From NCBI RefSeq assembly GCF_003268595.1, contig NZ_CP029797.1:1819501-1883500 (forward strand): a stretch of DNA of 64,000 nucleotides. The letters run 5' to 3'. The notes below the pieces were generated by a model. That model saw only the letters and a list, made by a program, of their open reading frames with translations. It was not told the origin of the DNA and made no database searches. Source of the DNA: Paraliobacillus zengyii (lineage in GTDB: Bacteria; Bacillota; Bacilli; Bacillales; Amphibacillaceae). The translations under genes were made by a program, and so were the position numbers. Of this stretch, positions 40,283-43,026 are shown piece after piece. Position 1 is the first letter of the stretch; each line of letters begins with the position of its first letter.

Positions 40283-41092
40283 ATGCCGAAAATTTTTATT
40301 GATCCTGGACATGGGGGAAATGATTCAGGTGCAAGTAGTAACGGGTTAGTAGAAAAGGATATAACATTAAATATTGCTCTAAAATTACAACAGATATTGA
40401 ACGATTCTTATCAAAATGTCACCACACGTCTATCAAGAACAACAGATCAGTCAGTTTCCCTGACCAATCGAACAAACGCTGCGAATGATTGGAATGCCGA
40501 TTACTATCTTTCCATTCACATTAACGCAGGTGGCGGTGTTGGTTTTGAAAGCTATATATGGAATGGTAATTTTGCTTCGAAATCTGAAACAGAACGATTG
40601 CGATCTACTATTCACGACGAAATTGTTGAAACGATTGGATGGCGTGATCGAGGTAAAAAAGAAGCGAATTTTCATGTGTTAAGAGAAACGACGATGCCAG
40701 CAATATTGACAGAAAATGGTTTTATAGATAATGATGCTGAAGCTGAAGAAATGAAAACGCCACAATGGATTGAACAAGTAGCACGTGCACATGCATCTGG
40801 TATCGCACAAGCATTTGAATTAGAAGAAGACTCGAATGCAGAAGAACCTGATACGTCATCTTTTTACCGAGTTGTTACAGGTTCGTTTCAATCCGAGAAA
40901 AATGCGAAGCAACGTAGATATGTTCTAAATAGGCATGGTTATAGTAGTTTTATAACGGAATTTAATGACCAAGGGCAAGTTTACTTCCGAGTGATTGTTG
41001 GGTCATTTCAAAACAGGTCCAATGCTGAAGGCCGTGTAGATGAATTAAATGAAATAGGGTTTGATTCATTTATTAGTACGTTCAACGGATAA
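40283..41092 (+). CDS. cwlC: N-acetylmuramoyl-L-alanine amidase, CwlC-like
   Basis: A 269-residue Amidase_3 enzyme: zinc ligands His10 (DPGHGG), Glu24 and His79 (SIHIN), and the catalytic Glu in LTENGFIDN. It ends in two SPOR repeats (FYRVVTGSFQSEKNAKQRRY and YFRVIVGSFQNRSNAEGRV). No signal peptide is seen, as in B. subtilis CwlC, a SigK-dependent enzyme that lyses the mother cell at the end of sporulation. GAAGGAGG precedes the ATG. Upstream, CATATAAAG at 40253-40261 only partly fits a SigK -10 element. Confidence 0.88.
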   Translation: MPKIFIDPGHGGNDSGASSNGLVEKDITLNIALKLQQILNDSYQNVTTRLSRTTDQSVSLTNRTNAANDWNADYYLSIHINAGGGVGFESYIWNGNFASKSETERLRSTIHDEIVETIGWRDRGKKEANFHVLRETTMPAILTENGFIDNDAEAEEMKTPQWIEQVARAHASGIAQAFELEEDSNAEEPDTSSFYRVVTGSFQSEKNAKQRRYVLNRHGYSSFITEFNDQGQVYFRVIVGSFQNRSNAEGRVDELNEIGFDSFISTFNG

Positions 41093-41133: not shown

Positions 41134-41766
41134 TTAATGGATATTTCTATATAAGCCTATTACTCTACCTAAAATGGAAACATTATCATATATGAGTGGT
41201 TCCATTGTTGCGTTTTCGGGTTGTAGACGAATATGGTCTTTTTCTTTGAAAAAGCGCTTAACTGTAGCCTCATTCTCATCTGTCATGGCGACTACAATTT
41301 CTCCATTTTGAGCGGTTTGCTGTTGTTTTACAATTACCATGTCACCATCTAATATACCTGCTTCGATCATACTTTCGCCTTCAATTACAAGTACAAAAAT
41401 TGACTGATCGGTAGCATCTCCATGTGTAAGAGTTAAAGGTAGTGGGATGTATTCTTCAATGTTTTCAACAGCAGTAATGGGGATACCAGCAGTAACTTTC
41501 CCTATAACAGGTGCAAACGTTACTTCTCCTTTAGGAATACTAGAGTCATCAGCGGCATGTAATACTTCTATTGCTCTAGGTTTCGTTGGATCTCTACGTA
41601 TGTATCCTTTTTTCTCTAGTCGAGCAAGGTGCCCATGTACGGTGGAACTTGATGCTAGACCAACAGCCCCGCCAATTTCTCTTACTGAAGGTGGATATCC
41701 TTTTGCTGCTACTTCATCTTTAATATAATCTAAGATTGCTTGTTGACGTTTTGAAATTTTCGTCAT
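41134..41766 (-). CDS. lexA: LexA, SOS repressor
   Basis: A 210-residue LexA. The winged-helix domain (1-65; [20 protein letters not shown]) is joined to the S24 autoprotease domain: cleavage site Ala93-Gly94, nucleophile Ser132 (EGESMIEAG) and Lys170. On DNA damage RecA filaments trigger self-cleavage. ATG 41766 has GGAGGTG upstream on the minus strand; the longer frame to 41829 runs into the promoter. An SOS box overlaps its own promoter, so it is autoregulated, and it is divergent from the SOS operon. Confidence 0.96.
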
Positions 41767-41849: not shown

Positions 41850-41877
41850 TTGACAGGAACAATCGTTCGGTTATAAT
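41850..41877 (+). promoter_or_regulatory. Strong promoter of SOS operon
   Basis: Consensus TTGACA (41850-41855), a 16-base spacer and consensus TATAAT (41872-41877). The first SOS box fills most of the spacer. Confidence 0.85.
41856..41869 (+). promoter_or_regulatory. SOS box 1 of peptide-yneB operon
   Basis: GGAACAATCGTTCG, one mismatch to CGAACNNNNGTTCG, lies between the -35 and -10 elements. Confidence 0.85.
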
Positions 41878-41889
41878 AAAATACAGATG

Positions 41890-41903
41890 CGAACAATCGT
41901 TCT
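41890..41903 (+). promoter_or_regulatory. SOS box 2 of peptide-yneB operon
   Basis: CGAACAATCGTTCT, one mismatch to consensus, is centred 34 bases from box 1 and lies just downstream of the expected start point. Two boxes suggest tight repression. Confidence 0.85.
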
Positions 41904-41925
41904 TAATATCAAAGGAGGAAACAAA

Positions 41926-42027
41926 ATGTTTAATAAAATAACTAATATTACTATGGTGGATTTATTCTATTTCATTTCGTTCATTCTTACGTTAGGATTT
42001 ATGTATATGGGTTTAGTTTCTAGTTAA
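41926..42027 (+). CDS. 33-residue SOS-controlled membrane peptide in the yneA position
   Basis: The ATG lies 7 bases after a perfect AAAGGAGG (41911-41918), the best ribosome binding site in this region, and the frame ends at TAA 42025-42027. The product has a short polar N-terminus (MFNKITNITMVD) and one hydrophobic segment (about 11-31: LFYFISFILTLGFMYMGLV). It is the first gene of a LexA-controlled operon followed by yneB and ynzC. In B. subtilis this place is held by yneA, a LysM-bearing SOS cell-division inhibitor; this peptide has no LysM domain. By position and size it may be a division inhibitor comparable to the 29-residue SidA of Caulobacter. That function is inference; no homology is claimed. 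Confidence 0.75.
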   Translation: MFNKITNITMVDLFYFISFILTLGFMYMGLVSS

Positions 42028-42040
42028 AAAATATGTTTAA

Positions 42041-42724
<684 letters not shown>

Positions 42725-42801: not shown

Positions 42802-43026
42802 ATGTTAGCTAAAGATAAATTAGATCGTATTAATATGCTGGCTAAAAAGGCCAAACAAGAAGGGTTAACAAGTGAAGAAAAAGAAGAACAGCAAAAACTA
42901 AGACAAGAATATTTAAAAAATGTACGACAATCTTTTAAAAATGAATTCAAAGGGATGAAGATCATTGATCCTAATGGAGATGATGTCACTCCAGAAAAAG
43001 TGAAGAATTTGAGAAAAGAAAATTAA
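42802..43026 (+). CDS. ynzC: YnzC, DUF896 family protein
   Basis: A 74-residue helical protein beginning [20 protein letters not shown], the DUF896 signature, followed by [18 protein letters not shown]. Known YnzC structures are two-helix hairpins. The gene is SOS-regulated in B. subtilis, with unknown function. AAAGGAG lies 8 bases before the ATG. Confidence 0.92.

Follow-up and report, generated by a model that had tools for sequence, protein, structure and literature searches.

The DNA between lexA and yneB in Paraliobacillus zengyii bears on the way in which septal wall synthesis is halted by small SOS membrane proteins, and it poses that question in a reduced form: what kind of gene holds the position of yneA when the reading frame found there has only 33 codons? 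The window, i.e. the whole stretch of 64,000 nucleotides analysed here, belongs to a host genome made up of one contig of 3.73 Mb. The frame (41926..42027, forward strand, ATG start, stop codon counted in) encodes MFNKITNITMVDLFYFISFILTLGFMYMGLVSS, a membrane peptide listed here as a candidate LysM-less form of YneA (mini-YneA). A transmembrane (TM) helix is predicted at approximately residues 13–31 with no charged residues inside it, Lys and Asp lie N-terminal to the helix, and there is no C-terminal domain. The extracellular LysM domain is absent, the frame stopping right after the helix. No match to the peptide was found among Pfam, NCBIfam and PHROGs models, including the NCBIfam model for YneA (NF010723); a sub-threshold match to JDVT-CTERM (E 0.077) was seen with the peptide of one relative.

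The neighbourhood is that described by the first-pass annotation, and Pfam matches confirm it. The gene for the SOS repressor, lexA (41134..41766, reverse strand; LexA_DNA_bind 1.4e-27, Peptidase_S24 5.3e-36), is divergent from the peptide gene. The immediate downstream neighbour is the resolvase-like yneB (42059..42724, forward strand; Resolvase 8.8e-26), followed by ynzC (42802..43026, forward strand; DUF896, 3e-31) and by tkt, which was identified by eye, giving the order lexA / peptide / yneB / ynzC / tkt. Upstream of lexA, an ORF at 40283–41092 appears by eye to be amidase-like with C-terminal SPOR-like repeats.

A ribosome-binding site, AAAGGAGG (41911..41918, forward strand), ends 7 nt upstream of the peptide ATG. 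An alternative in-frame start at 41887 would give 46 amino acids and runs over the second SOS box; it was set aside because the frames of relatives begin 3' of the ribosome site. The promoter is of the sigma-70 type, TTGACA-16 nt-TATAAT (41850..41877, forward strand), and agrees with the consensus in all 12 of its 12 bases. The scanned stretch holds 10 promoter-like sites, against 7.0 in shuffles, and the full score is unique to this one. Two SOS (LexA) boxes accompany it on the forward strand, GGAACAATCGTTCG (41856..41869) within the promoter spacer and CGAACAATCGTTCT (41890..41903) directly downstream of the -10 hexamer, each one base off the consensus CGAACNNNNGTTCG. The short ORF with its strong ribosome site, the consensus promoter and the two boxes thus all stand as first proposed. 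At one mismatch or fewer, CGAACNNNNGTTCG has 3 matches in the window where 0.63 are expected; since 3 of 100 shuffles also give 3, the call leans more on position and conservation than on match count. A stricter SOS consensus is CGAACRNRYGTTYG, which has no matches genome-wide, and neither box in the window fits it. One box in the hexamer spacer and another after the -10 hexamer would let LexA occlude the promoter. SOS control of the peptide gene is predicted with high confidence.

The frame is conserved well beyond this genome. A search with the 33-residue query matched 44 of 61 genomes at E<=10, many of them by chance; among the 30 loci taken from it (the window's included), 26 are flanked by lexA and yneB and 4 lie elsewhere. 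The window's own family, here labelled f1, includes Terribacillus, Oceanobacillus, Virgibacillus, Gracilibacillus, Lentibacillus and Amphibacillus types, these names being approximate. With yneB as the anchor, found in 148 of 159 f1 genomes, the upstream DNA was examined in all 148, and the peptide is present in 136. A GAACNNNNGTTC box occurs in 135 of these 136 and is absent from 10 of the 12 without the peptide (Fisher 7e-13, relatedness ignored). No peptide was seen beside lexA in 10 f1 genomes that have lexA and no yneB match. Across 141 distinct peptide sequences, Phe and Tyr are present in every one and Asp in 140. The dN/dS ratio is approximately 0.15 over 57 disjoint pairs, in a set that leaves out the 18 of 219 peptide loci without canonical spacing; a test for conservation along one face of the helix comes out marginal (p 0.052). 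The ORF is a real gene: its frame is conserved across families and under purifying selection, far beyond chance. The check proposed at first pass, for conserved short ORFs between lexA and yneB in relatives, thus turned up 136 of 148 genomes of the same family and four further families. In the f1 genome G114 (L154 / L430) the peptide frame is broken, and the SOS box and ftsW are still there.

To place the peptide in the order, 44 of the 47 families seen there were sampled with one or a few genomes each (f23, f35 and f37 were left out; genus names given for families are approximate). The families f1, f2 (Salirhabdus type), f7 (Halobacillus type), f36 (Pontibacillus type), f32 and f42 have a peptide of 35 residues or fewer flanked by lexA and yneB. 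In f3, f6, f21 and f34 the yneA position is held by proteins of 58 to 91 amino acids that lack LysM. A search next to lexA in the representatives of f11 (L230), f22 (L257) and f16 (L260) gave no yneA-like frame, and the other 31 families have LysM YneA at the locus. Taken together with the 34-residue form of f42, the LysM-less proteins at the yneA position in f3, f6, f21, f34 and f42 (L250, L255, L241, L223, L248, L232) span 34 to 91 amino acids.

A profile built from the short peptides was scored on the first 45 residues of 29 LysM YneA representatives, with class-preserving shuffles, which keep hydrophobic and polar positions, as the null. Relatedness of the single N-terminal TM helix to that of YneA was detected in 7 of the 29 at p<0.05, three of them at the floor of 0.0025, and the other 22 have no significant match; Fisher combination over all 29 gives 1e-6 with related families taken as independent. 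The f5 protein (L267) has a LysM domain and is counted as YneA-type; its p against shuffles is 0.44. The LysM-less forms of f3, f6, f21 and f42 also beat the shuffles, and that of f34 does not. None of 303 background TM segments scores 5 bits or more with the profile. Segments that carry LysM or the peptide motif are left out of this background, as are two that proved to be true family members, and non-gene frames may be among the rest.

The residues critical in B. subtilis YneA are K5, F10, V11 and F14, according to the excerpted text of PMC13396833. Their spacing is copied by K/R-x4-[FYW]-[VILM]-x2-F, with the acidic residue (E6) shifted by one. This pattern fits 110 of the 141 distinct peptides, 5 of the 303 background TM segments and 6 of the 60 YneA N-termini examined. 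We do not use it as proof, because it was chosen post hoc, E6 is displaced, and the copy in the window, which is three residues longer at the N-terminus, fails it.

A LexA+YneB tree (76 rows, quick method, SH-aLRT support) contains a 99% branch with f1, f2, f7, f36 and f32 on one side. The opposite side takes in every one of the 35 LysM rows, together with f42, f11, f22 and the 4 longer forms that lack LysM. The 34-residue peptide of f42 looks like a separate LysM loss because it is placed among LysM families, and the LysM-less forms of f3, f6, f21, f34 and f42 are probably separate losses. When 151 genomes drawn from the class were searched with a LysM YneA, 31 had a match, 10 in the same order and 21 in other orders, and all 30 loci taken from this search carry lexA, 20 of them from other orders. 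Having been picked by a LysM query, these loci show that lexA-linked LysM YneA exists outside the order and say nothing of its frequency. Most simply, LysM is ancestral and the short peptide derived.

From synteny, the profile likeness to 7 of 29 N-termini and the tree, descent of the peptide from YneA through loss of LysM is strongly supported, and the peptide is very probably the orthologue of yneA. The peptide stands at the position of yneA, as first proposed; on these same three lines, an unrelated replacement is less apt a description than yneA without LysM. A yneA homologue elsewhere in the genome, which was named at the outset as evidence against the proposal, was not found: of 18 LysM hits in the window's genome, not one passes the YneA cut-off, and the frames that hold them are each 205 amino acids or longer. 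With no hit over the cut-off and none in a shorter frame, a standard YneA elsewhere in this genome is not indicated. The cut-off is exceeded in 9 of 159 f1 genomes, in one case, among the matches listed, by a 653-residue frame, and some f1 relatives may have a second YneA.

A link to division comes from the distribution of ftsW. The FtsW of the window's genome was searched against all 159 f1 genomes and told from the two other SEDS genes of that genome by eye from its neighbours, ftsW lying near a ctaB-like gene and the SpoVE-like gene near a murD-like one; at the ftsW loci, further neighbours were assigned by eye to what we take to be ylaN, pycA and ctaA. Best hits form two groups, at E<=1e-114 or at approximately 1e-78 to 1e-89, with G071 (3e-42) and G154 (no hit) as outliers. 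G154, which is 80% complete and has no lexA or FtsW match, was excluded, leaving 158 genomes in the table. G071 was scored as ftsW-present since its locus holds a frame-broken copy, and the co-loss P was computed both ways. Orthodox ftsW is found in 135 of 136 peptide-bearing genomes and is missing in 15 of 22 peptide-less ones (Fisher 7e-15, relatedness ignored).

A tree was drawn with 83 genomes from this table, every one of the 22 peptide-less genomes and 61 of the 136 peptide-bearing ones; its outgroup rows are scattered, with f7 and f36 inside f1. On it the peptide is lost 6 times and ftsW 5 times, and 4 of these losses fall on shared branches. The branches are those of G025, of G106, of G179 and of a clade of 12 with Amphibacillus, Halolactibacillus and G035, in which the inner forks are only partly resolved. 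Random placement of the losses on branches gives P 2e-5 to 6e-5, the tree being taken as given. A stricter starred-branch pair test, in which G071 counts as ftsW-absent, has only 3 pairs, hence no power, and gives no significance. The absence of ftsW is visible at the locus in G179, where the gap between presumed ylaN and pycA is approximately 390 bp (near C1:1600531-1600921) and the congener G029 has ftsW between them. In G031 and G063 ylaN was seen, and the only SEDS hit (40–42%) lies approximately 28 kb away; for the other ftsW-less genomes absence is read from the FtsW search, G025 being 90% and G106 94% complete. Counter-cases occur in both directions. G024 has an ftsW-free ylaN–pycA gap of approximately 465 bp, yet retains the peptide, and six g26 genomes and G114 have ftsW but no peptide. 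The correlation supports a functional tie between the peptide and FtsW, direct contact not being implied, and lends indirect support to a function in division.

At the best remaining hit, G031, G024 and G009 have a tandem pair of other SEDS genes (L460 7422-9720, L461 8385-10822, L462 7962-10270), which suggests a replaced division polymerase in the several f1 lineages without orthodox ftsW. In G031 (Amphibacillus type) a 193-residue LysM protein is encoded directly after the pair (L460 10063-10644).

The following sequence of events would account for these observations. On DNA damage LexA would leave both promoter boxes and the peptide would be made in bursts. It would insert in the membrane with its Lys- and Asp-bearing N-terminus inside, as expected from the positive-inside rule. 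The helix would then pack against the septal peptidoglycan polymerase FtsW, like the helix of B. subtilis YneA, so that septal synthesis stalls and septation is delayed until repair is done. The best explanation of the locus, and a fairly likely one, is thus an SOS-controlled yneA orthologue cut to its N-terminal membrane helix and halting septation via FtsW. An FtsW-linked role in division is probable to the same degree, and inhibition by the helix alone is a tentative proposal that may well fail. Induction, FtsW binding by the peptide, division arrest and a LysM-free mode of inhibition are all steps that we infer. In B. subtilis the YneA helix is reported to bind FtsW TM7, with inhibition depending on LysM; deprived of LysM, the helix goes to midcell but is not toxic and does not block division, and the TM7 changes V204F and P206L are reported to confer YneA resistance (excerpted text of PMC13396833). 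Since the helix by itself does no harm in B. subtilis, the peptide has to be either more potent, a gain that SidA indicates to be possible at 29 residues (PMC4211646, in the part available), or milder in its action.

Other readings of the locus have to be weighed against this one. Membrane helices easily converge, and 22 of 29 LysM YneA N-termini are unmatched by the profile, as might be expected if an unrelated short peptide had displaced yneA, possibly taking over the same role. We consider this improbable, given that locus and control are those of yneA, that the remaining 7 N-termini match where no other TM segment reaches 5 bits, and that other families have graded LysM-less forms. It is more doubtful still that the peptide is an inert remnant or leader tuning the expression of yneB. 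It does lie directly before yneB with no 12/12 promoter between, but what is conserved is amino acids, not bases (the low dN/dS, invariant Phe and Tyr, near-invariant Asp), and yneB is kept without the peptide in 12 of 148 genomes.

TisB of Escherichia coli is a short SOS-induced membrane peptide with a charged amphipathic helix that depolarises the membrane. A peptide of this kind, one that promotes dormancy and does not inhibit division, could equally have the SOS-type control sites and the lone short TM helix seen here. Such a function is unlikely here: the helix resembles that of YneA by the profile comparison, its predicted TM segment is uncharged, unlike that of TisB, and co-loss with ftsW is not predicted. 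Leader, TisB-like pore and unrelated replacement were accordingly rejected or ranked below the reading as LysM-less YneA. That reading is shared up to its last step by a peptide that binds FtsW for localisation or modulation without arresting division, a lesser possibility of some weight. Co-loss with ftsW fits it, as does the non-toxic localisation of the helix in B. subtilis (excerpted text of PMC13396833), but a search of the window's genome turned up no LysM YneA that could finish the job, and the peptide has nonetheless been kept with its SOS-type control.

No description of the short form was found in titles and opening abstracts of the open PMC literature, outside of which most subscription papers lie. 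SosA is already known as a lexA-linked inhibitor without LysM (PMC6851548, in part), so that the lack of LysM is not in itself a novelty. What appears to be new is a TM-only form common to several families, and its co-loss with ftsW. A 2026 study of YneA (PMC13396833) attributes FtsW binding to the helix and the inhibitory effect to LysM, whereas the families described here appear to run the checkpoint with the helix alone; in them nature has set up an experiment that bears on the part responsible for inhibiting FtsW. We tentatively suggest that the helix of about 30 residues left after LysM loss, an event that would have occurred several times in Bacillales, might be a working SOS checkpoint by itself in several families, inhibiting FtsW within the membrane, unlike the B. 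subtilis helix, and that lineages without orthodox FtsW then mostly dropped it. The peptide is kept in a large group of salt-tolerant Bacillus relatives and is mostly gone where FtsW is gone, and the lineages that lack both offer a comparative handle on the target. It is also a candidate ligand of about 30 residues for a peptidoglycan polymerase of drug interest, and it represents a type of gene that the Pfam, NCBIfam and PHROGs models searched here do not catch.

Among known systems, YneA (B. subtilis; NF010723) is closest. It shares the position divergent from lexA, with yneB and ynzC next in line in relatives within the order, and a LexA-type SOS box in the promoter (135 of 136 for the peptide); it differs in having approximately 100 amino acids with LysM, against 27–35 and no extracellular domain. 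TisB is likewise a short membrane peptide under SOS-type control, but its gene position and sequence type, compared by description, are different. The third comparison is with Caulobacter, which belongs to a different phylum. Its SidA is a 29-residue SOS-induced inner-membrane protein acting on FtsW (PMC4211646, in the part available). SidA and the peptide are in the same size class and SOS boxes precede the peptide gene, the two having been compared by description and not by sequence alignment; low-confidence models place SidA on the opposite side of FtsW TM7 from the YneA helix (excerpted text of PMC13396833). SosA of Staphylococcus, by the available text of PMC6851548, is an SOS division inhibitor whose gene is linked to lexA. 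It has a single TM helix, lacks LysM, and includes in its 77 residues an extracellular tail required for activity and turnover. In contrast, the alignment of 141 distinct peptides has no tail after the TM helix.
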